Part shown: piece after piece, positions 2,219 through 24,576 of the stretch
Layout: each line of letters starts with the position of its first letter
Position numbering within the stretch: the stretch's first letter is position 1
Assembly: GCA_035540375.1 (NCBI GenBank)
Contig: DATLGO010000030.1
Location: 1 to 34,911 of the forward strand
Source: Candidatus Thermoplasmatota archaeon
GTDB lineage: Archaea > Thermoplasmatota > SW-10-69-26 > JACQPN01 > JAJPHT01
Length of the DNA: 34,911 nucleotides
Direction of reading: 5' to 3'
Position numbers and translations under genes: made by a program
The notes under the pieces: generated by a model
The model's input: the letters and a program-made list of their open reading frames with translations, nothing else
What the model was told of the DNA's origin: nothing
The model's database searches: none

Positions 2219-3121
2219 ATGCCCGTCGACGCGCTCCTCGTGGCCCAGGCGTTCGTGGCGTCGATCCTGGGCTTCTTCGCGCCGTGCAGCGTGGGCATGC
2301 TCCCGGCGTACGTGGGCTACCTCCTCGGCGAGTCGTCGGGCGGGGGCGCGGCGGCGCCGTCGCGCGCGCACCGGTGGGCGGGCGCGGCGGCGGTGGCGCT
2401 CGGCGGGTTGCTCGTCGCGCTGGGCCTTTTCGAGGTGCAGCGCGTGAACCTGGGCGCCGCGGCGCTGACGCTCGCGCCGCTTGCGGCGCTCGCGGGCGGC
2501 GGGGCGCTCGCGGTGACGGGATTCGTGGCGCTCGCGTCGACGCGCGCGGTGCGGGGCCTCGCGATCGGGGCGCAGGCGAGCCTGGGCGTCGTCGCGGTGC
2601 TCGTCGTCGTGGGGGCGCCCGTCGCGATCCTCGCCTCGGGCCTTCTCACGCTCGGCCGCCTCGCGGCGCTGCTTGCGGTCCTCGGCCTCGTGCTCGCGAC
2701 GCTCGGCGTCGCGACGCTCCTCGGCCGCGACCCGACCGTCCCGTTCGGCTTCGCGGCGCCGACGCGCGTGCCGCGGCCGCTTCGCGCGTTCGTGTTCGGC
2801 GTCGTGTACGGCCTCGTGAGCCTCGGGTGCAATTTCCCGCTCTTCGCGTTCCTCGTCGCCTCCGCGCTCGCGACGGGCGGCGCGGTGGACGCGTTCGCGA
2901 CGTTCGCGGTGTACGCGTTCGGCGTCGCGACGCTTCTCGTCCCGATCGCGGCCGCGGTCGCGACGGGCCGCGGCGTGGCTGTCGTGCGCGCGGCGTCGCG
3001 CCACGTGAAGACCGCGACGGGCGCGCTCCTCGTCGTGGCGGGCCTCTACATGGCGTACTACTACGGCGTCGTGCTCCTCACGGGCGGACCGCCGGCGTGG
3101 GCGTTGCGGGTGTTGGGGTGA
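2219..3121 (+). CDS. ccdA: Cytochrome c biogenesis / thiol-reductant transporter CcdA
   Basis: The 300-residue multi-helix membrane protein belongs to the CcdA/DsbD-beta family, which carries reducing equivalents from cytoplasmic thioredoxin across the membrane for cytochrome c maturation or disulfide exchange. The hallmark block FFAPCSVGMLPAYVGYLL puts the first active Cys at residue 23. The second is Cys204 in LGCNFPLFAFL, at the start of the second half, as expected for the pseudo-symmetrical fold. A run of about eight hydrophobic segments is visible. The ATG at 2219 follows the C-rich array by about 65 nt. CTTCAC at 2188-2193 may serve as TATA element. No partner thioredoxin-like protein follows directly. 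CcmF lies about 17 kb downstream. Confidence 0.9.
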   Translation: MPVDALLVAQAFVASILGFFAPCSVGMLPAYVGYLLGESSGGGAAAPSRAHRWAGAAAVALGGLLVALGLFEVQRVNLGAAALTLAPLAALAGGGALAVTGFVALASTRAVRGLAIGAQASLGVVAVLVVVGAPVAILASGLLTLGRLAALLAVLGLVLATLGVATLLGRDPTVPFGFAAPTRVPRPLRAFVFGVVYGLVSLGCNFPLFAFLVASALATGGAVDAFATFAVYAFGVATLLVPIAAAVATGRGVAVVRAASRHVKTATGALLVVAGLYMAYYYGVVLLTGGPPAWALRVLG

Positions 3122-3135: not shown

Positions 3136-3168
3136 AAATGTTCATGCTTGACATGATTGTGTCAGCTT

Positions 3169-4401
3169 GTGCAGTACGGTCGGACGAGACCTGTCATCGC
3201 CACGCTCGCCATTCTCTTCGCCGGTTGTGTGGCGCCGCTCGCATCCGATTCTGACTCAGGGCCCTCCGTCGAGGATGGGGCTCCCAATCTTCGCGGGCCG
3301 CCTGGGCCAGCCGGTCCCGCGGGGCCACCGGGACCCCCGGGTCCGACCGGCCCTCCCGGCCCGCAGGGGTCCTCGGGTGCCGCCGGCGAGCGCGGGCCAC
3401 CTGGAGTCGAGGCCGACGCGTCGCAAGATTGGTCTCGCGGACCACTCTTCTACACGAGCATCCGCGATGCATCGACGTTCGTTGTCCATGACTCGGTCCG
3501 GGAACGGTCGTACATCTTCCGTCCCGGCGGTGTGAATCCGCCGGGGAGTCCGAGCCAGTATTTTGACATCGCCAACAACGTCTATCGGAATTATCACCCT
3601 CCGCCCGCCGACGTCGACATTCCGGGAGCCTTCGGATCGGGGGCGAGCGGCGCGTTCGACGGCAACCGGACGATCTACGTCGTTCTAGGGGGCGGGTCAA
3701 AGATGTTCTTGAAATACGACACAGGGACGCCCCATGCGGTCTTGAACGGCCCCGATGACCGGGGTATCGGCTGGACGCGCCTCGCCGACGTGCCCGTCGA
3801 GGTAGGCGAGGGAGCCGCGACGTTCATCGCCGATGCGCGCATCTTCGTCGCGCCGGGGCGTGCGACTCGCTACTGGTACGCGTTCAACATCGACACCGGC
3901 GAGTGGTCGCGCTTACCGGATTTGCCCTCGAGCGATCCGGAGGCGGGGAAGGTCGGAAACATCGTCGGCCATTTCGGGCTCACGGGCGTCGTCCTAAACG
4001 ACCGCTACATCCTCCTATCAACGCGTCATCACATCCTGAGATATGACGTCGAGACTGACGGGTGGATCGGCAACGGGTTCGGCAGCGAAACGTACACAAC
4101 ATTACGCTTCACGCTCGGCGAAGGGGCCGCCATGGTCACGGATCCAGCAACATCGACAATCTGGATCCTCCGCGGACTCCGCACGGGCCAGCTGGGCGCG
4201 ATCACAACGAGCGATGCAACGGGCTCCAACCCGCGATTCTTCTTCGTCGATACGGACGTTCCCGCTCCCGTGAGCGTGGCCGGGCCGCGCATGGTCCTGA
4301 CGGCGGCGACGGGAACAAAGGAGATCCTCGTTTGGCCCGCGGACGGGACCGGTCGGCTATGGCGGACGCCCGTGTCCGCGTTGGGTCTCGTCCCCACTTA
4401 G
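3169..4401 (+). CDS. Collagen-like lipoprotein with beta-propeller-like domain
   Basis: The 410-residue product has a short signal peptide ending in a lipobox (LFAGC, Cys20 with the GTG start at 3169), so it is probably anchored to the outer face of the membrane. Residues about 43-81 are 13 uninterrupted Gly-X-Y triplets, mostly GPP and GPA, as in collagen. The remaining 330 residues show repeating strands ending in Trp or Tyr plus Gly/Asp turns (for example [17 protein letters not shown] and [14 protein letters not shown]), typical of Kelch-like propellers. TTG at 3157 is an alternative start. Codons ending in A or T (TTA, CTA, TCA) are clearly more frequent than in the neighbours, which suggests recent acquisition. 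The ligand is unknown. Collagen triplets could make it a trimer. Confidence 0.8.
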
Positions 4402-5597: not shown

Positions 5598-7325
5598 TTG
5601 AACGCCCGCACCCTGTCCGCCCTCGTCCTCGCCGCGCTCCTTCTCGGCCCCGGCTTTGCGGCGGCCAAGGTCGTCCTCCGCGCCGAATACGTGGTCGAGA
5701 CCGGCTACGAGACGGGCGAGACGAACCGGATGCTCCTCGACGCGGCGGGGCAGCGCAACTGCCTCGACGCGCCCGCGTCCCTCGAGGCGGCCGCGCGCCC
5801 CGGTTGCGCGTTCGGGCCGACGGGTGAGGCGTATCCCGCGGTCGGCATCCGGGTCCTCGACGCGATCCTCTACGGCGCAGGCCTCAGCGATCCCGTGGGC
5901 GACGCGCGCGCCATCCTCGCGGACCCCAGGGCGAACGCCTCGGCGGCCGCGAACGACGCGAAACGCGGCATGAACCCCCACCGCGCGTCGGGCGGCGTCG
6001 CCCCCGACCTCATCCTGCCGGGCCGCGGGCAGCTCTGGGCGTGGCACGGACGGTGGAACGACCTCGACGGCGACGGCGCGATCGACATCGCGACGATTCC
6101 TCTGGGCCCGCGCCCGCGCAACGAGTGGTCGCCCGACCGGCAGGCCCCGATCGTCGCCTATGTCGAGCCCGGAAGCCACCCGTCGTTCACGAACTTCCAT
6201 CGGCCCGACGAGGTCTCGCCGGACATGTACCTCGTGTGGAACGACGACGAGTTCGCGCACCATTCGGGCGGCGATGCGGGCATCCGCGTGAGCGGCAACA
6301 TCGAGGCCGCGGTGCCTTATTCGGTCCTCCTGACCGGCTCGCTTTTCGAAGTCGTGACCCTCAGCACCGTGACGGACGCCATCCTCGCGCCGAGCGCGGG
6401 CGGGAAACCGTACACCCCGCGCGAAACCTCGCTCGTGGACGTCGATCGTTACGCGGCCGCCGCGCCCGGCCCGGTCGCCGGACTCTACGCAGGCGCGCTC
6501 GCCTCGACGCTGCGTCCCTTCACCACGCCCTCTCTCGGCTATTGCCCGAACGCCTGCCGGCCCGGCCCGGTTTCCTTCGCGGACACGCCGCTCGAAGGTC
6601 CCGGCAACGCCCTCGTCGGCGCGCCGTTTGCGCCGTACCCCCAGGAATGGCGCCCGGGAAGCCTGTCGACGAACGCGGGTCGGCACGTCGAGTATCTCGC
6701 GGGCTACGAGGATTGGATCGATCTCCACCCCCGCTGGTCCCCCTTGGGGGGCGGGACCGCGACGCGCTCCTCTCCGCTTCCGGGCCGGGGCGCGGACGGC
6801 GCGATGGCGATGATGCCCGGCGTCTTCTCGGCCGAGGTGCGTCTCGGTCTCTGGCACGACCTCGACGGCGACGGCTTTGTGGGGACCGCGCGCGAAGGCG
6901 ACCCGTACCACGGCGGGAGCCGCCCCGTGGCGGACGATTACACGAACCCGCGCGGGGAGTTCTTCGGCGCGAACGCCGTCTACAAGGGATCAAGCTCCGC
7001 GGCGCTGTCGTTCGCGGTCGACCTCTTCCCCGAGACGACGTGGGGCAACGGCGTCTGGCCGCTCGACATCAATGGGCGACCCTTGAACGTCGTCACGGGC
7101 GCGGAGCCGATCCGCATCGCCGTCGCGCGCGACGAGAACGTCCCGGGTTACTACAGCGCGTGGACGACCGTCCTCATGCCGGAGGGGTCGCCCGCCTTCA
7201 CAGTCTGCACGGACGCGGTCGAGATGCTGCGGTCGATCGGAGCGGGCGAGGAGCGGCTCGTCCTGCGCGACTGCGACCGCGTCGCGGCGTGGGACGTCGA
7301 CGCGACGCTTGCGCAGACGTCCTGA
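5598..7325 (+). CDS. Secreted paired-cysteine family protein A
   Basis: First of seven tandem relatives; 575 residues. The signal peptide (MNARTLSALVLAALLLG..., cut near AAA-K) has no twin Arg or lipobox, and there is no C-terminal membrane helix, so the protein is probably released. The conserved layout is: GQRNC (Cys55) and Cys70; IRVLDA; HRASGG; LILPGRGQLWAWHG followed by the first acidic loop WNDLDGDG (Trp153); NEW; YVEPGSHP; GSLF; TSLVDVDRY; YCPNAC (Cys316, Cys320); STNAGR; WIDLHPRWSP; second loop WHDLDGDGFVG (Trp419) and DPYHGGSRP; then Cys537 and DCD at Cys559. It has six cysteines in total. The start is TTG, chosen for the GGAGGC seven bases upstream and the clean signal peptide. I recognise no known family. 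Confidence 0.92.
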   Translation: MNARTLSALVLAALLLGPGFAAAKVVLRAEYVVETGYETGETNRMLLDAAGQRNCLDAPASLEAAARPGCAFGPTGEAYPAVGIRVLDAILYGAGLSDPVGDARAILADPRANASAAANDAKRGMNPHRASGGVAPDLILPGRGQLWAWHGRWNDLDGDGAIDIATIPLGPRPRNEWSPDRQAPIVAYVEPGSHPSFTNFHRPDEVSPDMYLVWNDDEFAHHSGGDAGIRVSGNIEAAVPYSVLLTGSLFEVVTLSTVTDAILAPSAGGKPYTPRETSLVDVDRYAAAAPGPVAGLYAGALASTLRPFTTPSLGYCPNACRPGPVSFADTPLEGPGNALVGAPFAPYPQEWRPGSLSTNAGRHVEYLAGYEDWIDLHPRWSPLGGGTATRSSPLPGRGADGAMAMMPGVFSAEVRLGLWHDLDGDGFVGTAREGDPYHGGSRPVADDYTNPRGEFFGANAVYKGSSSAALSFAVDLFPETTWGNGVWPLDINGRPLNVVTGAEPIRIAVARDENVPGYYSAWTTVLMPEGSPAFTVCTDAVEMLRSIGAGEERLVLRDCDRVAAWDVDATLAQTS

Positions 7326-7341
7326 CCCGTCGCGCGGGCCT

Positions 7342-7387
7342 GGGCGACCCGCCCCTCCCGGATCGGGAACGGGTCGGGGGGTCGCCC
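7342..7387 (+). terminator. Inverted repeat after gene A
   Basis: GGGCGACCC (7342-7350) and GGGTCGCCC (7379-7387) form perfect 9-base arms around a 28-base loop that contains a smaller CCCG/CGGG hairpin. It sits between the stop of A and the promoter of B. It may be a transcript end or mRNA-stabilising structure. There is no T run, so an archaeal terminator function is uncertain. Confidence 0.4.
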
Positions 7388-7404
7388 GACGGCAGGGGGG
7401 AGCG

Positions 7405-7441
7405 CTTAAGCGATCCCAGGCCGCATGGGCGGGTCGGAGGC
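7405..7441 (+). promoter_or_regulatory. Promoter and leader of the B-C unit
   Basis: AGCGCTTAAG ends at 7410 after a purine-rich BRE-like stretch (GGGGGG). GGAGGC lies at 7436-7441, five bases before the ATG at 7447. The centre of CTTAAG is 39.5 nt from the start. The predicted transcript would begin just before GGAGGC. Confidence 0.7.
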
Positions 7442-7446
7442 TTTCC

Positions 7447-9156
7447 ATGGATGCCCGCCACGGTGCCGTGATCATCCTCGTCATGCTGCTTGCCGTCCCC
7501 GGGGCCGAGGCCGCGGCGATGACGCTTCGCGCCGAATACGCCGTCAAGACCGGTCTCGAGACCCGCGAGCGCGACCGGCTCGCGCTCGACGGGATGGGCC
7601 AGCGCAACTGCCTCGATCTTCCGGCCTCCGCCGAGGCTCCCGCGCGGGCCGGATGCGAGTTCGTTTCGACGGGCGTGGCCTATCCGCCGACGGGCATCCG
7701 CGTCCTCGACGCGGTGCTCTTCGGCGTCGGCGTGAGCGACCCCGTGGGGAGCGCGAAGGCCGTCGCCGCGAACCCGACCGGAAACGTGACGGCGCCCGTG
7801 AAGGACGCGAACCGCGGCATGAGCGCTCACCGCGCGACGGACGGCGACGCGCCCGAGGTCATCCTCCCCGGCCGCAGCCAGCTGTGGGCGTGGCATGGGC
7901 GATGGAACGACCTCGACGACGACGGCGACGTCGACGTCGCGATCTGGAACGGCGGGACCCGTCCGCGCAACGAGTGGGCGGTGGACGTGAACACGCCGCT
8001 CGTCGCGTACGTCGAGCCCGGAAGCCACCCCTCGTTCACGAACTTCCACCGGCCCGACGCGTACGCGCCCGATCTCTACCTCGTCTACGAATCCGACGAC
8101 CTCGCGCACGCGTCGGGCGGCGACGCGGGCCTCCGCGTGAGCGGCCCCACGAAGGCGGGCATCCCGTATTCCGTGATGGTCACGGGCTCGCTCTTCGAAG
8201 CCATCACGGTAGCGACCGTGAGCGATCCCATCTTCGCGCCGAGCCCCGGCGGCAAGCCGTACACGCCGCGCTCCACGTCGCTCGTGGACATCGATCGGTA
8301 TGCGGTCGGCGCGCCGGGCCCGCTCGTCCAGCTCTACAACGGCGCGCTCGCCTCCGCGCTCGCGCCGTACACGACGCCCTCCCTCGGCTACTGCCCGAAC
8401 GCGTGCCGACCGGGACCCATGTCCTTCGCGGACACGCCGCTCGAAGGTCCTGCGCACGCCGCCATGGCGGGCCTCTTCGCGCCCTACCCCAAGGAGTGGC
8501 TCGAAGGCAGCCTCTCCACGAACGCGGGCCGTCAAGAGGCGTACCGCGCGGGTTACACCGACTGGATCGATCTGCATCCGCGCTGGTCGCCTGTGGGCGG
8601 CGGGCTCGCGACGCGCTCCTCGCCGCTCGCGGGCCGCGCCGCGGACGGCGGGCAGGCGATGATGCCGGGCGTCCTCACCGTGGAGATCCGCCTCGGCCTC
8701 TGGAGCGACCTCGACGCCGACGGTTTCGTGGGCTCCGCGCGCGCCGGCGACCCGTACCACGGCGGAAGCCGGCCGATCGCGGACGACTACGAGGACACGC
8801 GCGGCGAATTCTACGGGACCTTCGCCGTCGCGCCCGGCGGTCGCACGGCGCTCGCCACCATCTCGGTGGATCTCGTCCCCGACACGGTGTGGGGAGACGG
8901 GGTCGTCCCGATCAACATGAACGGCGTGCCTGAGATGCCGGTCGAGGGCTCGCAGCCCATCCGCATCGCCGCGGCCCGCGACGAGAGCGCTCCGGGCTAC
9001 TATTCCGCCTGGTCGGGCGTGCTCATGGTCCACGGATCCCCCGCCTTCACGATCTGCACGAGCGACATCGAGATGCTCCGCGCGCTCGGCGCGAACGAGG
9101 AACGCATCCCGCTCAAGGACTGCGACCGGATTGGCGCGTGGGACGGGCGTCCATGA
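7447..9156 (+). CDS. Secreted paired-cysteine family protein B
   Basis: 569 residues, and the closest relative of A: long stretches are nearly identical (GYCPNACRPGP, SFADTPLEGP, EPGSHPSFTNFHRPD, LSTNAGR). The signal peptide is MDARHGAVIILVMLLAVPGAEA. The six cysteines fall at the same places as in A (55, 70, 316, 320, then the C-terminal CTS and DCD). The first acidic loop is WNDLDDDGDVDV, the second WSDLDADGFVGSARAGDPY. One proline-rich region before the second loop is shared with A only. The start ATG follows GGAGGC. The stop codon overlaps the start of gene C by ATGA, so B and C are surely cotranscribed. A and B look like the youngest duplication in the array. Confidence 0.92.
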   Translation: MDARHGAVIILVMLLAVPGAEAAAMTLRAEYAVKTGLETRERDRLALDGMGQRNCLDLPASAEAPARAGCEFVSTGVAYPPTGIRVLDAVLFGVGVSDPVGSAKAVAANPTGNVTAPVKDANRGMSAHRATDGDAPEVILPGRSQLWAWHGRWNDLDDDGDVDVAIWNGGTRPRNEWAVDVNTPLVAYVEPGSHPSFTNFHRPDAYAPDLYLVYESDDLAHASGGDAGLRVSGPTKAGIPYSVMVTGSLFEAITVATVSDPIFAPSPGGKPYTPRSTSLVDIDRYAVGAPGPLVQLYNGALASALAPYTTPSLGYCPNACRPGPMSFADTPLEGPAHAAMAGLFAPYPKEWLEGSLSTNAGRQEAYRAGYTDWIDLHPRWSPVGGGLATRSSPLAGRAADGGQAMMPGVLTVEIRLGLWSDLDADGFVGSARAGDPYHGGSRPIADDYEDTRGEFYGTFAVAPGGRTALATISVDLVPDTVWGDGVVPINMNGVPEMPVEGSQPIRIAAARDESAPGYYSAWSGVLMVHGSPAFTICTSDIEMLRALGANEERIPLKDCDRIGAWDGRP

Positions 9157-10868
9157 GCGCCCCGCGCGTCGCCCTCGTCGCGCTCGCGCTCCTCGCCTCG
9201 CCCGCGCTCGCGCAGGTGAGCGTGCCCGCCGACCTCGACCTCAAGGTGGGTTACGAGCGCGCGGAGCCTGGCCGCATCGAGCTCGACGCCGCGGGACAGA
9301 TGAACTGCCTCGGCCCGAACGATCCCGCGTCGCGCTGCGCGCCGGCCCCGACGGGACGCGCGCATCCCGCGACCGCGACGCTCGTTCTCGACAACGTGTA
9401 CCAGAGCGACGGCGCGACGGACCCTGCGGGTTCCGCGGCCGTCGTCCTCGTCTCGCCGTCCGAGAACGCGGACGCGCCGGTCATGGACGTCTCGCGCGGC
9501 GCCAATTGGCATCGCGCGACCGGCGGCGAGGTGCCGGACGTCATCGTGCCCGGCCGCGGGTACTTCCTCTCCTGGCACGGGCGATGGAGCGACGCGAACG
9601 GCGACGGCGTCGCGCAGGTCCGCTGGCACTCGTCGCGCGGTCCCACGGACCCGCGGCCCTCGAACGAGTGGGTTCCGGACGATACCGGCGGAATCGTGAG
9701 CTACATCGAGCCGGGCGCGCATCCCGTCGCAACGAGCCGCGTGCGCCCGGCCGAGGCGACGCCGGACCTCGTCTACCGCTACGTCGTCATCGAGATGGTC
9801 CACAAGCCCGCAGGCGACGTCGACGGCCGCGTGCTCTTCGTGGACGGTTCCCTCTTCCGCGCGATGACCGTCGAGACGGTCACGCACGCGCATCTTGCGC
9901 CGAGCCCGGACGGCCAAAAGCCCTTCACGGCGTCGACGACGTCGCTCGTGGACGTCGACCGCTACGCGGCCGTCGCTCCCGCGCCCGTCGCGGGCGCGTA
10001 CCGGGCGACCCTCGGGCCCGCCGCGGACGCGATCGGAAGCCCGAGCGTCGGGCTCTGCCCGAACGCCTGCCGCCCCGGCCCCGTGCCGCTCGGCGCGACG
10101 CCCGTCGCGGGTCCCGCCGGCGAGGTCCAGGCCGCGGTCTGGGCCCCGTATCCGCGCGAGTGGGAGGCCGGAAGCGGGTCGACCCGCGCGGGCCTCCACG
10201 AGGAGCACGTCGCGGGCTACGAGGCCTGGATCGACCTGCGGCTCTTCTACGCGGCGTGGGGCGGTCTCGCCGCGGGCGAGGCCGGGCCGCTCCCCGGACG
10301 CGGCGCCGACGGCTCGCCGAGCATGCTCCCCGGCGTCCTCGCGTGGGAGGTGTGGACGGGCGTGTGGAAGGATCTCGACGGCGACGGCCACATCGGATCC
10401 GCGAAACCCGGCGATCCCTACGAGGGCGGCACGCGGCCCATCGCGGACGACTACGCGAATCCCGTGGGCGAGTTCTTCGGCCACTGGCCGACGACTGACG
10501 CGGGCCACCTCGTGCAGACGGTGTACGTGGAGGTCCGGCCCACGACGACGTGGGGGGCCGGAGCGTTCATCCTCGCCGACGGCGCCGGCAACCCCACCTG
10601 CGAAGGCCCCGGCCTCTCGTCGACGTGCTACACCTCGGGCGCCGTGCTCCTTGCGGGGTCGACCCCCGTGAGGCTGTACGGCATCTTCGAAAGCGAGACG
10701 CCGGGTCGCTATCTCGGCCGGGCGACCCTCCTCCTCCCCGAAGGCTCGCCGGGACTCACCGCCTGCAGCCTCGCGGTCTCGCTCGAGCACGGGACGGACG
10801 GGAACCGCCGGCGCACCACGCTCGCGGACTGCGACACCCTGGCCCCCCTCGCCGACCGCGAAGAGTAG
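9153..10868 (+). CDS. Secreted paired-cysteine family protein C
   Basis: 571 residues with a short signal peptide (MSAPRVALVALALLASPALA, cut before QVS). It shares GQMNC (Cys52), Cys62, NWHRATGG, VIVPGRGYFLSWHGRWSDANGDG, YIEPGAHP, DGSLF, TSLVDVDRYA, LCPNAC, PGRGADG, WKDLDGDGHIG and DPYEGGTRPIADDY with its neighbours. It has eight cysteines, because a further pair (TCEGPGLSSTC) appears between the second loop and the C-terminal ACS/DCD pair. It begins inside the B stop codon (ATGA), so translational coupling is likely. Its own stop TAG is followed within two bases by the CTTAAG promoter of D. In the first loop Asn replaces one Asp (DANGDG), still compatible with calcium binding. Confidence 0.92.
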   Translation: MSAPRVALVALALLASPALAQVSVPADLDLKVGYERAEPGRIELDAAGQMNCLGPNDPASRCAPAPTGRAHPATATLVLDNVYQSDGATDPAGSAAVVLVSPSENADAPVMDVSRGANWHRATGGEVPDVIVPGRGYFLSWHGRWSDANGDGVAQVRWHSSRGPTDPRPSNEWVPDDTGGIVSYIEPGAHPVATSRVRPAEATPDLVYRYVVIEMVHKPAGDVDGRVLFVDGSLFRAMTVETVTHAHLAPSPDGQKPFTASTTSLVDVDRYAAVAPAPVAGAYRATLGPAADAIGSPSVGLCPNACRPGPVPLGATPVAGPAGEVQAAVWAPYPREWEAGSGSTRAGLHEEHVAGYEAWIDLRLFYAAWGGLAAGEAGPLPGRGADGSPSMLPGVLAWEVWTGVWKDLDGDGHIGSAKPGDPYEGGTRPIADDYANPVGEFFGHWPTTDAGHLVQTVYVEVRPTTTWGAGAFILADGAGNPTCEGPGLSSTCYTSGAVLLAGSTPVRLYGIFESETPGRYLGRATLLLPEGSPGLTACSLAVSLEHGTDGNRRRTTLADCDTLAPLADREE

Positions 10869-10870
10869 CG

Positions 10871-10906
10871 CTTAAGGTGTCCCACGCGGACTCGCGGCCG
10901 GGAGGC
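10871..10906 (+). promoter_or_regulatory. Promoter and leader of the D-E-F unit
   Basis: CTTAAG at 10871-10876 begins two bases after the stop of gene C. GGAGGC at 10901-10906 is six bases before the GTG at 10913. Centre-to-start spacing is 39.5 nt, the same as for units B-C and G. Confidence 0.7.
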
Positions 10907-10912
10907 TCCCTC

Positions 10913-12646
10913 GTGCACCGTGCGGTCCCGCTCCTCGTCCTCGCGCTCCTTGCGCTTTCACCCAGCCTGCCGATCGCGGCGGCGCAGGAGATCAGCGTCG
11001 TCGGCATCTCCTCCTTCTACACCCATCCCGTCCATCTCGAGGTGGACGAGCGCAACGCTCGCCAGCTCGACGCGGAGGGCCAGCGCAACTGCGCCGCCGC
11101 GGCCGAGGCCGGCGGAGGTCCCGGATGTCCGTCCGTCGTGCGGAGCAAGCGACCCTTCTCGGGCGTGCGCCTTCTCGACGCGAGCGCGATGCAGGAAGGC
11201 TCGCGCGATCCCGTGGGCGACGCCGGGACGACCGCGAACGAGCCCGGCAACTTGTTCGCCGTACCGGCGGGATTCATGCGCGGCGCCAACCCGCGGGCGG
11301 CCTCGGGCGGCGAGGCCGAGGAGATCATCCTCCCCGGCCGCTACACGCTCCGCGCATGGTACGGCGTCTGGAACGACACCAACGGCGACCGGGGCATCCG
11401 GATCGCCTTCGACGTCAACGGCCAGGCGACCCCGACGAACGAGTGGATTCCCGAGCGCGAGGCGACGCTCGTCGCGTACATCGAGCCAGGGTCGCGCCCC
11501 GGCCTCATGTCCTCGTCGCGCGGTCATGCGGACGCGCCGGACGTCACGCTCCTGCACGACTACTCGAACCATGCGCACGCCCAGGCGGGCGAAGGCTACG
11601 TCGGCATCGGCCTGAGCCCCGTCGTCTTCCTCGACGGGTCGCTCCTCCAGAGCGTGCGGACGACCACCGTCGCCGAAGCCATCCTCCAACCCGACGGCGA
11701 GCGCCCCTACACGCTCACGGACGCGTCGCTCGTCGACATCGACGTCGCGGCCGCCGCCGCGCCCGGCCCCGTCGCGGATATCTTCGGGGCGACGCTCGCG
11801 ACGCCCGTGAACGCGATCGGGAGCCCCTCCGTGGGTTCGTGTCCAGGCGAGTGCCGCATCGGGCCCTCCTTCGCGACGGGCACCGCGCTCGAGGGCCCCG
11901 TCGGCGCCCTCGCGGCCGGCCAGTACGTGCCGCCGGCGCGCGAATGGCTGCCGGGAAGCGGCGCCTCGAACGCGGGTCGGCGCGCGGAGTACAATGCGAG
12001 CTACACGCCCTGGGCGGACCTCGCGGCCGCGTGGGCCCCATGGAGCGGGTCCGCGTCGCGCTTCGCGGGTCCCGTGCCGGGCCGCGCCGCGGACGGGCGC
12101 GCCTCCGCGATGCCCGGGGTCCTGGTGTTCCACGCGTGGGTCGGTCTCTGGAAGGACCTCGACGGCGACGGCTTCGTCGGCGCTCCGGGCGAGGACCCCT
12201 ACGCGGGCGGCACGCGCCCGACGCCGGACGCCTACGCGGACCCGCGGGGCGAATTCCACGGCATCTACCCGACCTCGCCCGAAAGTCCTGCGCGCGCGTG
12301 GAACGTCGCGCTCACGCTCACGCCGGACTCCGATTGGTCGGGTGTCGTGGTGCTCGACAACTTCTACGGCTCGGTGAAGTGCGGGAACGAGATGCTCCTC
12401 GACGGCATCTTCTCGTGCCTCAAGCCCGGGCTCTGGGGCGTGCACGGCAGCGCTCCGCTGCAATTCTCCCTGCACCTGGTCGCGGCCGAGCCGGGCCGCC
12501 TCGTCTCTTCGAGCGCGCTCCTCCTGCCCACCGGCTCGCCGGGCTTCACCGCCTGCATGGCGCCCGCCTACCTCCGCCACGGCGTGAACGAGGCGGAGTG
12601 GGTCCACGACTGCGACGTCGTCGCGCGATGGGAGGGTCACCCGTGA
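10913..12646 (+). CDS. Secreted paired-cysteine family protein D
   Basis: 577 residues from a GTG start, with signal peptide VHRAVPLLVLALLALSPSLPIAAA. This is a diverged member. GQRNC (Cys60) and Cys72, YIEPGSRP, DGSLLQ, ASLVDIDV, SCPGEC, SNAGRRAEY, WKDLDGDGFVG and DPYAGGTRP are kept. The HRATGG block has become PRAASGG without the His, and the first acidic loop is WNDTNGDRGIRI, missing one Asp, so this site may be weak. The extra cysteine pair has the wide form KC...SC (KCGNEMLLDGIFSC), giving eight cysteines. The start follows GGAGGC; a longer upstream reading frame is open but has no signal peptide. The stop overlaps gene E by GTGA. Confidence 0.92.
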   Translation: MHRAVPLLVLALLALSPSLPIAAAQEISVVGISSFYTHPVHLEVDERNARQLDAEGQRNCAAAAEAGGGPGCPSVVRSKRPFSGVRLLDASAMQEGSRDPVGDAGTTANEPGNLFAVPAGFMRGANPRAASGGEAEEIILPGRYTLRAWYGVWNDTNGDRGIRIAFDVNGQATPTNEWIPEREATLVAYIEPGSRPGLMSSSRGHADAPDVTLLHDYSNHAHAQAGEGYVGIGLSPVVFLDGSLLQSVRTTTVAEAILQPDGERPYTLTDASLVDIDVAAAAAPGPVADIFGATLATPVNAIGSPSVGSCPGECRIGPSFATGTALEGPVGALAAGQYVPPAREWLPGSGASNAGRRAEYNASYTPWADLAAAWAPWSGSASRFAGPVPGRAADGRASAMPGVLVFHAWVGLWKDLDGDGFVGAPGEDPYAGGTRPTPDAYADPRGEFHGIYPTSPESPARAWNVALTLTPDSDWSGVVVLDNFYGSVKCGNEMLLDGIFSCLKPGLWGVHGSAPLQFSLHLVAAEPGRLVSSSALLLPTGSPGFTACMAPAYLRHGVNEAEWVHDCDVVARWEGHP

Positions 12647-14382
12647 CCCGACGCGTCGTCGCCCTCGTCGCGCTTCTCGCGATGACGCCCGTCGCGACGG
12701 CCATCATCGACGAGTTCGTCGCGACGTCCCCGATCGAGGCGCCGTACCGCGTCCGCCTCTCGTTCGAGGCGCGCGAGCCGCAGCGCGCCGCGCTCGCCCT
12801 CCTCGGCCAGCGCAATTGCGTGGAGGAGGCGGCCGCCGGCGGCTCCGAGGCATGCCCCTCGCGCCCGACCGGCGAGCTGTACCCGACCGTGGGCGTCCGC
12901 ATCCTCGACGCCGTCTACCATGGCGAAGGCCCGTCGGACCCCTCGAGCGGCGCCGAGAAGGCCTCCCGCGACGGCACCAATGCCACGGGCTACGTCCTCG
13001 CGGACGTCTTCCGCGGCTCGAACACGCACCGCGGCACGGACGGCGAGGCGCCCGAGGTCATCCTCCCGGGCCGCGCCGTCCTGCGCGCCTGGCACGGGTA
13101 CTGGAGCGATCTCGACGACGACGGCGACGCCGACGTGGATTGGAACGCCTGGAAGCCGAGACCCGGCAACGAGTTCGTCGGCGTGCGCGGCGAGGTCGCC
13201 TCGTACATCGACCCGGGAAGCCGCCCCACGCTCACGAGCACGTGGCGGCCCGGCGACGACGCGCCCGACGTGTTCTACCGCTTCGACATCTATTCGCAGG
13301 CCTACCAGGTGGTCGGCGAGTCCGCGCACAACGCGCACCTCGCGCCCATCGTGTTCATCGACGGATCGCTCCTGCAGACGATCGTCATCGTCACGGTCAC
13401 GGACCCCGTGTTCGCGCCCGACGGCCTCGGTCGCCCGTACACGCCGGGCGCGACGTCGCTTGCGGACGTCGATCGTTACCCCGCGGCCGCTCCCGGATCC
13501 GTCAGCGCGCTCTACGCGGCGACGCTCGCGAAGCCCGTGAACGACCTCGGCTCGCCGAGCCTCGGACTCTGCCCCGGCGGATGCGCCGTGGGTCCGTTCG
13601 CGCCGCCCGAGCCGCTCGCGGGGCCCGCCGGCGCCGCGTGGAGCCTGGGCTACGCCCGCACCCTCCCCGAATGGGACGAGGCGAGCAATTCGACGGCGGC
13701 CGGCCGGCGCGCGGATTACGTCGCGCGTCCCACGCCGTGGGTCGACCTCCGCCTCCTCACGTCGCCCGGTCCCGGTCCCGCTTCGCTCGCGGCCGGGCCT
13801 CTCGTCGGCCGCGACGCGACGGGCGCCCCGGCCCCCGCGCCGGGCTTCGTGGCGCTCGAGGTGTGGTACGGCCTGTGGCACGATCTCGACGGCGACGGCT
13901 TCATCGGCGACGCGGGGGAGGACCCTTACGCGGCGGGCGCGCGACCCTCGCCCGACGACTACGCGCAGGCCGCGGGCGAGTTCATCGGCCGCTTCCCGAC
14001 CGCCACGGCGTCGACCACGGCGGAAGTGTTCGCCGTCAAGATGGTGGCGCGGCCGCTTGCGACCTGGGGCGCCGGCGTCGGGCTTTTCGACCGGGAAGGG
14101 CTCCCCATCTGTCCGGGCCGGACGCAGCGGACGAACGTCGCCGACTGCCGCGCGAACGGCGCCCTCCACACGGGCGACAAGCCCTTGAACCTCACGGCCC
14201 TCTCGAGCATGACCGACCGCGGACGCTACCGCGGGGGACATACGCTCTTCTTCCCCGCCGGATCGCCCGGCTTCGAGGTGTGCGTCGCGGCCGTCTACCT
14301 GCGGCACGGACCGATCGAGGATCCGCGCGTGGATCGCGTCGCCGACTGTGACGTCTTCGGACGCTGGGGGGAGGCCCTGTGA
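12643..14382 (+). CDS. Secreted paired-cysteine family protein E
   Basis: 579 residues from the GTG at 12643, which overlaps the D stop as GTGA and has GGAGGGT a few bases upstream; an in-frame ATG at 12628 is less likely. The signal peptide is VTRRVVALVALLAMTPVATA. Cys59 (GQRNC), Cys71, LCPGGC, the extra pair ICPG...DC, and the C-terminal VCVA/DCDVF make eight cysteines. This protein shows the internal duplication most clearly: PGRAVLRAWHGYWSDLDDDG in the first half aligns without gaps to PGFVALEVWYGLWHDLDGDG in the second, with 11 of 20 positions identical. NEW is replaced by NEF. It is the middle gene of the D-E-F unit. Confidence 0.92.
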   Translation: MTRRVVALVALLAMTPVATAIIDEFVATSPIEAPYRVRLSFEAREPQRAALALLGQRNCVEEAAAGGSEACPSRPTGELYPTVGVRILDAVYHGEGPSDPSSGAEKASRDGTNATGYVLADVFRGSNTHRGTDGEAPEVILPGRAVLRAWHGYWSDLDDDGDADVDWNAWKPRPGNEFVGVRGEVASYIDPGSRPTLTSTWRPGDDAPDVFYRFDIYSQAYQVVGESAHNAHLAPIVFIDGSLLQTIVIVTVTDPVFAPDGLGRPYTPGATSLADVDRYPAAAPGSVSALYAATLAKPVNDLGSPSLGLCPGGCAVGPFAPPEPLAGPAGAAWSLGYARTLPEWDEASNSTAAGRRADYVARPTPWVDLRLLTSPGPGPASLAAGPLVGRDATGAPAPAPGFVALEVWYGLWHDLDGDGFIGDAGEDPYAAGARPSPDDYAQAAGEFIGRFPTATASTTAEVFAVKMVARPLATWGAGVGLFDREGLPICPGRTQRTNVADCRANGALHTGDKPLNLTALSSMTDRGRYRGGHTLFFPAGSPGFEVCVAAVYLRHGPIEDPRVDRVADCDVFGRWGEAL

Positions 14383-16127
14383 AACGCGGCGCGCTCGTCC
14401 TCGCGGCGCTGGTTCTCGTCGGGGCCGCGGCGCCCGCGGGCGCAAGCCTCCTCGACCTGCTGCGCGTGAAGCCGTGGACCGGCCCCTACACGCTCGACAT
14501 GACGGGCGAGGTGAGGGAGCCGAACCGTCTCGACCTCGACGCGGCGGGTCAGCGCAACTGTGTCGCCTCGGCCCGCGAGGGCGGGACGCCGGCGTGTCCC
14601 CCGACGGCGACGAACGCGAAGCTTCCGGTCGCGGGCGTGCTCATGCTGGACGCGACGTACTTCGCTCCCGGTCCCACCGAGCCCAAGTCCGCGGTCGAGT
14701 CGTTCGTCGAACAGCCGACGACGCAGTCGGGCATGCTCATCGCGGAGCCGACGCGGGGTACGAATCCGCACCGCGCGACGGGCGGCCTCGCGCCGGACGT
14801 CGTCTGGCCCGGCATCGGCCATTTCCGCGCGTGGTACGGTCGATGGAACGACACGGACGGGGACGGTCGCGTGCGCGTCTCCGGGGCCGCGCAGTCGAAT
14901 CCGCCGCCCGACAACGAGTGGGTCGGCGTCGCGGACGCGCCCCTCGTGGCGTTCATCGAGCCGGGTTCGCGCCCCGCGGTCACGAGCACCTCGCGCCCCG
15001 CGCCCTACGAGCCCGACATCGTGTTCGCGTATGACTTCATGAGCGCGTCCTACGCGCCCGCAGCGGACGGGTTCGCGCAGTTCGACGCTTCCCCCGTCAT
15101 CTTCCCCGACGGGTCGCTCCTGCGATCCCTCCGCAGCGTCGTCGTCTCGAACCCGGTCTTCGCGCCCAGCGAGGACGGCGCGCTGCCCATGAAGCCCCAT
15201 CCGGCTTCCTTCGTGGACATCGACGTGTACCCGGCGGCCGCGCCCGCCCCCGTGGCCCTCCTCTACGGCAGCACGCTCGCGCCCCTCGTCGACGCCTTCG
15301 GAAGTCCGAGCCTCGGCCTCTGCCCCGCGGCGTGCCGTCCCGGTCCCGAGGCCGCCGCCGGAACTCCGCTCGAGCCGCTTGCGGGCCCGGCCGCGGCCTC
15401 GCTCTACGCGGCGTACGAGATCGAGCACGCGCCGGGATCCGGCGCTTCGCGCGCGGGCCGCCACGCCGAGCATCTCGACGCCTGGGCGCCCTGGCTCGAC
15501 CTCCGCATCCTGCAGGCGGCGGGCTCGGGGCCCTTCGCGGCCCTCGCCGGGCCCCTCTCGGGGCGTACGGCGGACGGGCGGATGACCGCGCTTCCCGGGA
15601 CGCATCTGGTCATCGAGGCGTGGACCGGCGCGTGGCGGGACCTCGACGGGAACGGTCGGGTCGGACGCGCGGGGGATCCGTACGCAAGCGGCGCGCGGCC
15701 CTTCGGCGACGACTATCTCGCCTCGGGCGGGGAGTTCGTCCCCTTCCGACCCGTCTCCTCGCCTTCGAGCACCGAGACCTTGCGAAGCTTCCCGGTCCGG
15801 ATCGCGCCGGACGGGGATTGGGAAGGCGGCGTCCTCCTCCTCGACGAGCTGGGCATGCCCATCTGCGGCGGCGTCGGCTCCATGCCGGGCGCGAACTGCG
15901 CGAACGGCGTCCTCGCGACGGGCGGGACCGTGATCACGATTCCCCTTTCGCACCGGCCCACGGAGGAAGGTCGCCACGTTGCGCGCTACACGCTCTTCCT
16001 CCCGGCCGGGTCGCCGGGACTCGAGGCGTGCGCGGGCCCCGTGCACGTCCGCTACGGCGCGGGCATCTCGGCCTTCGCCGAGGACGTCTCGGACTGCGAC
16101 CGCCTCGCCCGGGTCGACGCGGTCTGA
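14379..16127 (+). CDS. Secreted paired-cysteine family protein F
   Basis: 582 residues; the GTG start overlaps the E stop (GTGA). The signal peptide is VKRGALVLAALVLVGAAAPAGA. Cys61 (GQRNC), Cys73, LCPAAC, the extra pair ICGG...NC, and ACAG/DCDRL make eight cysteines. NPHRATGG, AWYGRWNDTDGDG, NEWVG, FIEPGSRP and PDGSLL are recognisable. The second loop is WRDLDGNGRVG with the shorter GDPYASGARP after it. An RVKPWTGPY segment follows the signal peptide and resembles the start of E (SPIEAPYRV), which suggests E and F share a recent ancestor. It is the last gene of its unit, 66 nt before gene G. Confidence 0.92.
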   Translation: MKRGALVLAALVLVGAAAPAGASLLDLLRVKPWTGPYTLDMTGEVREPNRLDLDAAGQRNCVASAREGGTPACPPTATNAKLPVAGVLMLDATYFAPGPTEPKSAVESFVEQPTTQSGMLIAEPTRGTNPHRATGGLAPDVVWPGIGHFRAWYGRWNDTDGDGRVRVSGAAQSNPPPDNEWVGVADAPLVAFIEPGSRPAVTSTSRPAPYEPDIVFAYDFMSASYAPAADGFAQFDASPVIFPDGSLLRSLRSVVVSNPVFAPSEDGALPMKPHPASFVDIDVYPAAAPAPVALLYGSTLAPLVDAFGSPSLGLCPAACRPGPEAAAGTPLEPLAGPAAASLYAAYEIEHAPGSGASRAGRHAEHLDAWAPWLDLRILQAAGSGPFAALAGPLSGRTADGRMTALPGTHLVIEAWTGAWRDLDGNGRVGRAGDPYASGARPFGDDYLASGGEFVPFRPVSSPSSTETLRSFPVRIAPDGDWEGGVLLLDELGMPICGGVGSMPGANCANGVLATGGTVITIPLSHRPTEEGRHVARYTLFLPAGSPGLEACAGPVHVRYGAGISAFAEDVSDCDRLARVDAV

Positions 16128-16151
16128 CGGGTCCGACCGGTGGGGGAAGCG

Positions 16152-16187
16152 CTTAAGTGCCGCCCGACCCACTGCGGAGCCGGAGGC
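16152..16187 (+). promoter_or_regulatory. Promoter and leader of gene G
   Basis: AGCGCTTAAG ends at 16157 after GGGGGA. GGAGGC is at 16182-16187, six bases before the ATG at 16194. Centre-to-start spacing is 39.5 nt. Confidence 0.7.
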
Positions 16188-16193
16188 CTCCAG

Positions 16194-17972
16194 ATGCTTC
16201 GCCGTGTCACCATCCTTGCTGTCCTCGCCGTCCTCGTCGCCGCGCCGTTCGCGGGCGCGGCCCAGAACCCCGAGATCCGCTCGGATTACAACGTTTACAC
16301 GGACCGCGAGATCGCCGAAGGCTTCAGCACGGCGCCCCTCGGGCAAGCGAATTGCGTCGCGGAAGCCGCCCGCGGCGGCGACGCGACGTGCCCGCTCGAG
16401 AGCGTCGGAGGCGTCGGAGCGCCGAGCGTGGGCGTCCGGATGCTCGACGCGGTGTACTTCTCCGAGGGTCCGGGCGACCCCGTGGGCGACGTCGGCGCCG
16501 TGCGCCGGGACGTCGAGTCCGTGCAGAGCGGCGGCGGCACAGGGCAGAGCAACAACCACTACGTCCTCGTCGCGGACGCCCAGCGCGGCATGAACCTCCA
16601 CCGCATGACCGGCGGCGCCGTGCCCGAGGTCATCCTGCCGGGGCGCGGCTCCTTCAGCGCCTGGTATGGTTACTGGTCGGATGCGAACGGGGACCAGATC
16701 ATCCAGGTCCACTGGGCGGGGCAGCACTCCGCCGCGAAGCCCAAGATCTCGAACGAATGGAAGTCTATCCCGTCGGCCCGCATCCCGGTCTGGGTCGAGC
16801 CCGGCTCGCACCCGATGCCGACCCACATGTACCGGCCCGATGCCTTCACGCCGGACTTCTACCTGAAGTATGTCTCCTCCGAGATCGCCTACCGGTCGGA
16901 AGGCGAGAATCAGTACGTCACGCACGTCATCTTCACCGACGGCTCGCTCTTCCAGGACGCCACGGTGACCACCGTGACGAATCCGTTCCTCGCGCCGAAC
17001 GGCCAGCGTCCCTACACGACCACGTCGGAGTCGCTCGTGGACGTGGACCGCTATTCGGCGGTCGCGTCGGGGCCGGTCGCCTCGCTCTACAGGGTGCTCG
17101 TGTCCCCGTGGACGAACGAGCTCGGAAGCCCGAGCGTCGGCTACTGCCCGAACGGGTGTCGCGTCGGGCCGTTCCAGGGCGACACGGAGGCGCATGGCCC
17201 CCTGCGCATGGTCACGTCCCAGCATTACGTCGGCTACCCGCAGGAGTCCCGCCCCGGAAGCCTTTCGAGCAACGCGGGACGCGATTTCACGAACGGCTAC
17301 ATGCCGTGGGTCGACCTCCTTCCGCTCTGGTCCCCCGTCGGCGGTCACGCCGCGACGCTTTCGGGTCCGATGCCGGGCCGCAACCCCGACGGATCGCAGA
17401 CGATGCTCCCCGGCGTCCTCTCGTTCGAGCTGTTCGCCGGCGTCTGGTTCGACATCAACGAGGACGGATTCATCGGGGCGGTCCGGACCCGCGAGGACCC
17501 CTACGAGAGCGGTACGCGGCCCATCGCGGACGACTACTACAACGCCCGCGGCGAATTCTTCGGCAGCTACCTCATGCAATCCGCGACGAACGCCCTGCGG
17601 CGGAACGAGATCAAGGTCCGCCTCACGCCCCTCACCGACTGGGGAAGCGGCGTCATTCCGCTCGATGGATACGGGAATCCGTGTCTGACGCTCACGTCCC
17701 AGATTCCGACCGGGCTCCAGAAGTGCGCGACGAACGGCATGGTGGTGACGGGCACGACCCCGATCGAAGTGGCGCTCGACCTCGACAACGGCGTCGTGGG
17801 CCGCTACGGCCTCTCGGGCATGATGCTGAAACCGACCTCGGTGTTCATGCCCGCCGGCTCGCCCGGCTTCGCCGTGTGCACGCCCGACCTGCACCTGCGC
17901 TACGAGGCGGGAGGCACGGCCACGGTGGAGACCCTCAACGACTGCGACGTCATCGCGGCGCGCGTCGACTGA
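16194..17972 (+). CDS. Secreted paired-cysteine family protein G
   Basis: 592 residues, the longest and most diverged member. The signal peptide is MLRRVTILAVLAVLVAAPFAGA. GQANC (Cys54), Cys66, YCPNGC, the extra pair PCLT...KC, and VCTP/DCDV make eight cysteines. NLHRMTGG, VILPGRGSFSAWYGYWSDANGDQ, NEW, WVEPGSHPMPT, TDGSLF, ESLVDVDRY, LSSNAGR and WFDINEDGFIG are recognisable. It contains insertions, among them a Gly/Ser/Asn stretch (SGGGTGQSNNHY) before the His motif. It is more Lys/Asn-rich than the others. The start ATG follows GGAGGC. It is transcribed alone and closes the array. Confidence 0.92.
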   Translation: MLRRVTILAVLAVLVAAPFAGAAQNPEIRSDYNVYTDREIAEGFSTAPLGQANCVAEAARGGDATCPLESVGGVGAPSVGVRMLDAVYFSEGPGDPVGDVGAVRRDVESVQSGGGTGQSNNHYVLVADAQRGMNLHRMTGGAVPEVILPGRGSFSAWYGYWSDANGDQIIQVHWAGQHSAAKPKISNEWKSIPSARIPVWVEPGSHPMPTHMYRPDAFTPDFYLKYVSSEIAYRSEGENQYVTHVIFTDGSLFQDATVTTVTNPFLAPNGQRPYTTTSESLVDVDRYSAVASGPVASLYRVLVSPWTNELGSPSVGYCPNGCRVGPFQGDTEAHGPLRMVTSQHYVGYPQESRPGSLSSNAGRDFTNGYMPWVDLLPLWSPVGGHAATLSGPMPGRNPDGSQTMLPGVLSFELFAGVWFDINEDGFIGAVRTREDPYESGTRPIADDYYNARGEFFGSYLMQSATNALRRNEIKVRLTPLTDWGSGVIPLDGYGNPCLTLTSQIPTGLQKCATNGMVVTGTTPIEVALDLDNGVVGRYGLSGMMLKPTSVFMPAGSPGFAVCTPDLHLRYEAGGTATVETLNDCDVIAARVD

Positions 17973-23493: not shown

Positions 23494-24576
23494 GTGGAGT
23501 CCCGCAAGGTCCAGAAGGTTGGCGCCTCGACGCTGAGCGTATCGCTCCCGAAGGAGTGGGCGGAGGCGAACGGGCTGCGCAAGGGCGACATCGTGCTCTT
23601 CGAGCCCTTGAAGGACGGAACGCTCCGCGTCATGCCGAGCCGCGTGGGCGAAGCCGAGCGCGGACCCGCGCAGATCGAATATGTCGTGAACGCGGACCTC
23701 TGCGACGAGGTCGGGATGCTCGGCCGCGTGGTCGTGGGCAACTACGTGATTGGCCGCAACCACCTGCGCATCAAGTCGAAGTCGCGCATCCGCAGCGAGC
23801 ACATCCAGGAGGTCCGGAGCGCGGTGAGCAAGCTCATGGGCCTCGGCATCATGATGGAGACGCCCGACGAGATCGAGCTCCAGTGCTCGATCGACGCGGC
23901 GCGCTTCCCGATGGAGACCGTCATCAAGCGGCTCTACACCATCGGGGCGACGATGCAGCGCGAGGCGATCGAGGCCCTCGAGAAGAAGGACAAGAGCCTC
24001 GCCGAGGACGCGGTGGGCCGCGAGGACGAGGCGGACATGATCTACTGGCTCGCGTTGAGGCTCCTCCTCAGCGCGCAGGCCGACCCGTCGCTCGCCGAGA
24101 AGATCGGGATCCATGATTCGCTCCCCATCGTGGGCAACCGTCTCATCGCGAAGAATCTCGAGCACGTCGCGGACTACGCGGACAACATCGCGCGGAACGC
24201 GGTCAAGATCCTCGACTCGGGCCGGGCGCTCGACCCCGCCGTCGTCCGACGTCTTCGAAAAACGAGCGACACGAGCGCGCAGATCGTGGCGGACGCGCTC
24301 GCCTCCATCTTCGTGCACGACATGCACCTCGCGAACAAGGCCATCGAGGCGAAGGCCCGCGTCGAGGCGAGCGAGGAGGATCTCCTGAGGGAGATCGTGG
24401 ACGCCTCCGACGATCCCGCCCAGGTCGCAAGCCTCCGCGCGATCCTCTGGAGCCTGCGCCGCATCGCCGAATACGGCTCGGAGATCGCCGTCATCGGCAT
24501 CAACCGGTACCTCGAGCGGAGCTCCGCCCTCTGCCGCCCCGTGGACGAGAAGGAGCCGCGGTCGCGGCGGGGATGA
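23494..24576 (+). CDS. PhoU family regulator with AbrB-type N-terminus
   Basis: The 360-residue product has an N-terminal SpoVT/AbrB-like DNA-binding domain (about 1-50: KVQKVGASTLSVSLPKEWAE, LRKGDIVLFEP) fused to PhoU-type helical bundles (about 110-330). RREDEADMIYWLA-type and ENVADYADNIA-type blocks appear here as GREDEADMIYWLALR and LEHVADYADNIARNAV, with the metal-binding Asp/Glu residues of PhoU proteins. This fusion is typical of archaea, where it is thought to control phosphate uptake. No pst genes are in the window, so the target is unknown. The start GTG sits directly at the predicted transcript start. Confidence 0.88.
   Translation: MESRKVQKVGASTLSVSLPKEWAEANGLRKGDIVLFEPLKDGTLRVMPSRVGEAERGPAQIEYVVNADLCDEVGMLGRVVVGNYVIGRNHLRIKSKSRIRSEHIQEVRSAVSKLMGLGIMMETPDEIELQCSIDAARFPMETVIKRLYTIGATMQREAIEALEKKDKSLAEDAVGREDEADMIYWLALRLLLSAQADPSLAEKIGIHDSLPIVGNRLIAKNLEHVADYADNIARNAVKILDSGRALDPAVVRRLRKTSDTSAQIVADALASIFVHDMHLANKAIEAKARVEASEEDLLREIVDASDDPAQVASLRAILWSLRRIAEYGSEIAVIGINRYLERSSALCRPVDEKEPRSRRG

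Follow-up and report, generated by a model that had tools for sequence, protein, structure and literature searches.

Large families of divergent exported paralogues are known in other prokaryotes, the DUF1559 proteins of Planctomycetes, the PE/PPE proteins and the SusD-like proteins, with dozens of members per genome, being cases in point. The SdrD_B-like Ca2+-binding beta-sandwich modules of adhesins, which likewise belong to a secreted, adhesive context, carry a similarly worded D-x-N-x-DG motif, a resemblance that we treat as a lead only. Rigden et al. 2011 (PMC3123361) report a strong bias of Dx[DN]xDG motifs toward periplasmic, surface or secreted proteins and regard the motif as mostly convergent. 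Here, we analyze a 34,911-nucleotide stretch of a Candidatus Thermoplasmatota genome (contig DATLGO010000030.1; the whole stretch is hereafter the window), in which seven tandem genes at 5598-17972 encode large exported proteins with motifs of this kind. We favor, tentatively and at somewhat short of an even chance, the interpretation that these proteins represent an order-specific, exported, disulfide-locked, probably Ca2+-stabilized and beta-rich family that functions as a diversified surface or extracellular binding repertoire.

The seven-gene array and its expansion in the genome

The seven open reading frames (ORFs), denoted A to G, are all encoded on the + strand and form an operon-like, partly overlapping run, with 4-nucleotide overlaps at B/C, D/E and E/F. 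Gene A (5598..7325) encodes 575 residues, with a signal peptide at about 1-23; B (7447..9156; 569 residues) is closest to A, with 65% identity and a ratio of nonsynonymous to synonymous substitution rates (dN/dS) of about 0.41; C (9153..10868; 571 residues) overlaps the stop codon of B; D (10913..12646; about 577 residues) has an uncertain start codon, with 10877 also possible; E (12643..14382; 579 residues) and F (14379..16127; 582 residues) overlap the stop codons of D and E, respectively; and G (16194..17972; 592 residues) has an alternative GTG start at 16140. The products span 569-592 residues (about 577-579 for D and E with the starts used), the G+C content by codon position favors these frames over the overlapping ORFs, and a full-length alignment shows the proteins to be 37-65% identical to A, with about 85-90 columns invariant. 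An earlier note, made from the DNA alone, had described seven adjacent genes for proteins of this size with a shared order of motifs, which the ORFs, the codon-position composition and the alignment bear out; the motifs it listed are indeed covered by the invariant columns, although HRATGG, RxLDA and NEW are kept with substitutions rather than exactly (VLDN in C, PRAASGG in D and NEF in E). Chance resemblance is excluded: in a search of the same genome with a profile built from the seven proteins, these reached E-values of 1e-250 to 1e-260, and paralogues that were outside profile building reached 1e-178 and weaker. Because the seven array members and one copy on another contig form a single clade (Shimodaira-Hasegawa-like approximate likelihood ratio test, 99), we conclude that the array grew chiefly through local duplication.

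In the window's own assembly, the seven-row profile matches 85 stretches. These amount to 81 ORFs, or about 80 genes, spread over 38 contigs; with about 132 kb, the family accounts for 4.2% of the assembly of 3.13 Mb. Further arrays of 2-7 copies are found on contigs 70, 39, 63, 50, 4 and 29 and elsewhere; the twelve kilobases of one locus that had been singled out as devoted to the family are real, yet this locus is only one of many. Pairwise identity among 60 full-length members has a median of 35% (5-95% range, 31-40%; maximum, 65%), with no recent copies in the genome; neither recombination cassettes nor copies close to identity were seen. The tree has the shape of a star, its tips being long (0.98 changes per column for the median end branch), and the closest pairs show dN/dS of 0.41-0.55 at dS of 0.6-0.8, as estimated by a counting method that probably yields too low a dS at this G+C content. 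These rates, the low identity and the long tips show that the copies are old, divergent and still constrained, while evolving fast.

The dN/dS values of the close pairs are high, and a few truncated or frame-shifted copies are present, which is compatible with largely neutral duplication followed by weak retention, such that only few copies matter. However, most copies are intact, preserving the signal peptide, the motifs and the paired cysteines at 35% identity, which calls for long-term selection, and we consider the neutral scenario highly unlikely.

Chain anatomy, metal-type motifs and export

The N-terminal half of the chain consists, in order, of the signal peptide, ExxE, GQxNC...C, LDA, a variable stretch, PGxxxFxAWxGxWxDx[DN]xDG, NEW, EPGxxP, PD, DGSL and DVDRY; the C-terminal half continues with CPxxC, WxDL, PGxxxFExWxGxWxDxDxDGxxG, DPYxGGxRP, GEF, WGxGV, C...C and PxGSxGFxxC...DCD. 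The core motif, PGxxxFxAWxGxWxDx[DN]xDG, is thus present twice in most proteins, at a spacing of about 265 residues: at 6012..6092 and 6810..6887 in A, 7861..7941 and 8659..8739 in B, 9543..9623 and 10323..10403 in C, 11327..11407 and 12113..12181 in D, 13060..13125 and 13837..13914 in E, 14802..14879 and 15591..15671 in F, and, in G, at 16632..16712 (PGxxxFxAWYGxWxDxNGD, the Ca2+-type loop of module 1) and 17403..17477 (PGxxxFExxxGxWxDxNxDGFIG, that of module 2), all on the + strand. The duplication is recovered by hhalign with a probability of 95% and E=3e-8, compared with at most 1.1% in 30 column-shuffled controls. The 70 members contain 80 instances of Dx[DN]xDG, where shuffles predict 1.6, and 60/70 have at least one. 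Each half further contains a near-invariant Glu after the loop (188 and 454 in the numbering of G) and a DxD at its end (283/285 and 583/585); the correspondence between the halves past the core motif is, however, our own reading of the sequences, the wider half-to-half alignment being weak. Binding of Ca2+ by the Dx[DN]xDG loops is predicted, and is likely, because of the motif itself (PMC3123361).

The loops at 85-150, 221-250, 374-407 and 483-520 are variable in both sequence and length, whereas the motif segments are nearly fixed in length. The cysteines at 54-66 (GQxNC...C, pair 1), 318-322 (CPxxC, pair 2), 497-511 (C...C after WGxGV, pair 3) and 562-584 (PxGSxGFxxC...DCD, pair 4) occur either as a complete pair or not at all in 59/60, 59/60, 58/60 and 60/60 members, respectively. 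Such joint gain and loss is what disulfides in an exported protein would produce, and up to four of them are predicted. A CxxCH heme-binding site was considered and dropped because the motif is CPxxC without a His after it. Two other genes of the window are possibly relevant to extracytoplasmic thiol chemistry, namely, those for a cytochrome c assembly protein (PF01578; 19164-21695, - strand) and for a CcdA-like membrane protein recognized by eye, with no Pfam match (2219-3121, + strand).

The large size, secretion and many conserved Asp and Glu residues, with about 20 acidic positions conserved, could also suit secreted enzymes, such as hydrolases, in which case diversification of substrates might have driven the expansion. 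However, there is no conserved His or Lys and a single conserved Ser (251), many of the conserved acids are located in the repeated metal-type motifs, and no enzyme family was matched, all of which makes this explanation, the third in our ranking, decidedly unlikely.

All seven window proteins possess clear signal peptides, in agreement with the export that had been predicted for them, and Sec-type signal peptides are found in nearly all members of the family with an intact N terminus. The absence of a lipobox, also part of the earlier prediction, holds for the seven proteins but not for the family, in which about 16 of the about 80 paralogues, none of them in the window, have one (LAGC, VAGC or AAGC); on the tree, the lipobox is clustered in one part, and its distribution requires several changes. 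Hence the cell seems to have both lipid-anchored and unanchored forms. The mature proteins are acidic, with isoelectric points of 4.3-4.9, unlike most other products of the window. Acidic, exported, disulfide-rich proteins with Ca2+-type motifs and very many copies, some lipid-anchored, could be imagined to build a Ca2+-dependent S-layer-like coat or an extracellular matrix of variable composition. A lattice, however, would need conserved contact surfaces, and a median identity of 35% together with indel-rich loops speaks against a uniform one; the seven proteins also showed neither a C-terminal anchor nor a C-terminal transmembrane segment. We place the coat or matrix second, behind the binding repertoire, and regard it as unlikely.

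Two AlphaFold runs, built from the seven window sequences only, reached a mean predicted local distance difference test score of 49 and 46, with fair confidence only for about the last 220 residues. In both models, this C-terminal region consists of successive beta strands, one of which is long and ends in the core motif, and the fold would, by inference, be beta-sandwich-like.

Distribution in the order and genomic surroundings

The host is an archaeon, as previously supposed, the best ribosomal RNA clan matches of the assembly being the archaeal small and large subunits; a sigma-70 promoter scan is uninformative in such a host. We found full-length relatives in just two further genomes of the order, namely, G001, with about 10, mostly in one array, and G003, with about 8, several of which are fragments at contig ends; a profile comparison links the family of the window genome to this set at 99.9% and E=1e-34 over 485 columns. 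There was no other full-length carrier in the phylum samples of 390 genomes, and of two profile scans of genome contigs, one gave no match and the other matched only contigs of G003. When the core motif alone served as a short profile, every one of the order's five genomes matched (135, 14, 9, 6 and 1 matches), partly by construction as the profile contained rows from G000, G001, G003 and G004, and none of 189 further genomes sampled from the phylum did, including two from the same class. The genome outside the profile rows, G002, matches at E=1.2e-4 through a single protein with an export signal, EPN, GVWRDCNED and DVDD.

The sister genus, G004, has a separate, expanded family of its own, comprising about 9 secreted proteins rich in cysteine. 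It resembles the window family in having a signal peptide, an EP motif, GVWxDCNxDGYVG and DVDCY (E=1e-5 to 1e-6 over 32-33 columns in hhalign, at 80-91%) but differs in that only the core motif aligns, with one copy per chain and another cysteine pattern. An initial match in G004 was not reproduced by HMMER on the locus and belongs to this G004-specific family, of which two tested proteins had no Pfam match. The numbers of genes with the core motif across the five genomes are 1, about 8, 9, about 10 and about 80. The sampled genomes point to a family that is specific to the order.

This lineage-specific expansion and fast divergence, with each relative carrying its own set, might also reflect conflict with viruses, predators or neighbors, in which the proteins would serve as variable surface or decoy molecules through antigenic or receptor variation. 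However, no near-identical copies and no cassettes for recombination were seen, none of 70 members matches the PADLOC defense models, and no homologues were detected in the viral contigs, plasmids and phages searched, so that we see little probability in this possibility.

Several observations concern the surroundings of the genes. The array itself is surrounded by housekeeping and transport genes, and the window contains no transfer RNA gene and no Rfam element. At a G003 locus (L097), a family member adjoins genes for a PiT phosphate transporter (PF01384) and, by eye, PhoU-like proteins, and a PhoU-domain regulator is also encoded in the window (23494-24576). The flanks of the G001 array (L091, 600-2843; L092, 10496-13756) encode large proteins with bacterial immunoglobulin-like and carbohydrate-binding module domains. 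Elsewhere in the window, a subtilase with the lipobox FAGC (PF00082; 24614-26074, + strand) lies near the array and may be a protease of the surface; a predicted lipoprotein (3157-4401, + strand) combines a Gly-Pro-Pro repeat of the collagen type (above the cut-off of PF01391) with subsequent kelch-like repeats, which is unusual for an archaeon; a four-helix-bundle protein of the 23S ribosomal RNA intervening-sequence family (PF05635; 1406-1825) is encoded between short GC-rich tandem-repeat arrays at 1045-1331 and 1846-2153; and a DUF3335 peptidase C39-like protein (PF11814; 33161-33772, - strand) is encoded near the window end.

A possible binding repertoire and its relation to known systems

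The metal-type cores of fixed length, the paired cysteines, the indel-rich loops, the anchored and free forms and the lineage-specific expansion together lead us to favor a diversified binding repertoire. Under this scenario, each chain would be exported via Sec and would, when mature, contain two beta-rich core motifs in which the Dx[DN]xDG loop, the downstream Glu and the terminal DxD probably bind Ca2+, and, once outside the cell, the fold would be locked by up to four disulfides. Some members would be lipid-anchored, whereas the remainder would be released or would stay on the surface through non-covalent contacts, and the rigid core would display the loops that are strongly variable in sequence and length. 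The about 80 divergent paralogues could then form an adhesin-like or receptor-like set for different ligands, conceivably other cells, minerals, glycans or peptides. Sequence establishes the anatomy, together with the expansion, the diversification and the taxonomic restriction, whereas ligand binding and the diversity of ligands are what we infer. Of the matrix, filament or binding layer once suggested for the seven proteins, nothing in the data favors a filament, and neither of the other two is shown, although the conserved core, the variable loops and the median identity of 35% would fit diversified binding better than a uniform matrix.

Several observations weigh against the repertoire. 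Variable loops also arise where a sequence is simply unconstrained, the structure models are weak, with the N-terminal half poorly modeled, a Foldseek search of the Protein Data Bank (PDB) with the two models gave no match below E=0.001, and neighbor-gene clustering revealed no gene family that recurs beside the copies. A more far-reaching proposal, that an order-restricted, internally duplicated and Ca2+-clamped protein represents both a new fold and a new function, the about 80 copies together forming a combinatorial system for the surface or for recognition, is possible but doubtful. If true, it would give archaea an equivalent of the large variable surface families that bacteria and eukaryotes have. 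When about 4% of an archaeal genome of 3 Mb goes to one family without annotation, the blind spot in archaeal surface biology is large, the copy-number series in five genomes offers a natural setting to ask what drives the expansion of secreted families in archaea, and the order-specific motif can be searched for in metaproteomes at once.

As the earlier note had anticipated, no known family was matched at any sensitivity applied: none of the 70 members matches Pfam (E<=0.05) or NCBIfam (E<=0.01), the seven window proteins yield sub-threshold noise alone against these two databases at E<=1 and no PHROG match, a PDB sequence profile search gave nothing significant, and no description of the family was found in the literature searched. 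Matches to RskA and integrin (E 0.016-0.19) were treated as chance, and the best Foldseek matches, with E 0.011 and 0.035 and different targets, were not accepted. Among specific candidates, an FG-GAP/integrin calcium blade (PF13517) was rejected, the best FG-GAP_3 hit scoring 13.8 bits against a cut-off of 26.9 (E=0.09), as were an SdrD_B-like adhesin module, with no Pfam family at E<=0.05 in the 70 members, and a known S-layer domain or C-terminal anchor, with neither a Pfam match nor a C-terminal transmembrane segment in the seven.

With the proteins that form EF-hand-like calcium loops outside EF-hands, including dockerin and the FG-GAP/integrin blades (PMC3123361), the family shares the linear Dx[DN]xDG motif, the bias toward secretion or the surface and the acidic ligands further along the chain, but its motif sits inside PGxxxFxAWxGxW and is duplicated about 265 residues apart. 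The SdrD_B-like modules differ in the cysteine pairs and the PGxxxFxAW context, with no significant fold match. Between the family and DUF1559, PE/PPE or the SusD-like proteins, there is no sequence relationship in Pfam or NCBIfam and no recurrent linked gene. Considered as proteins, the members fall into none of the named families tested; the phenomenon itself joins the large exported paralogous families that are known elsewhere.

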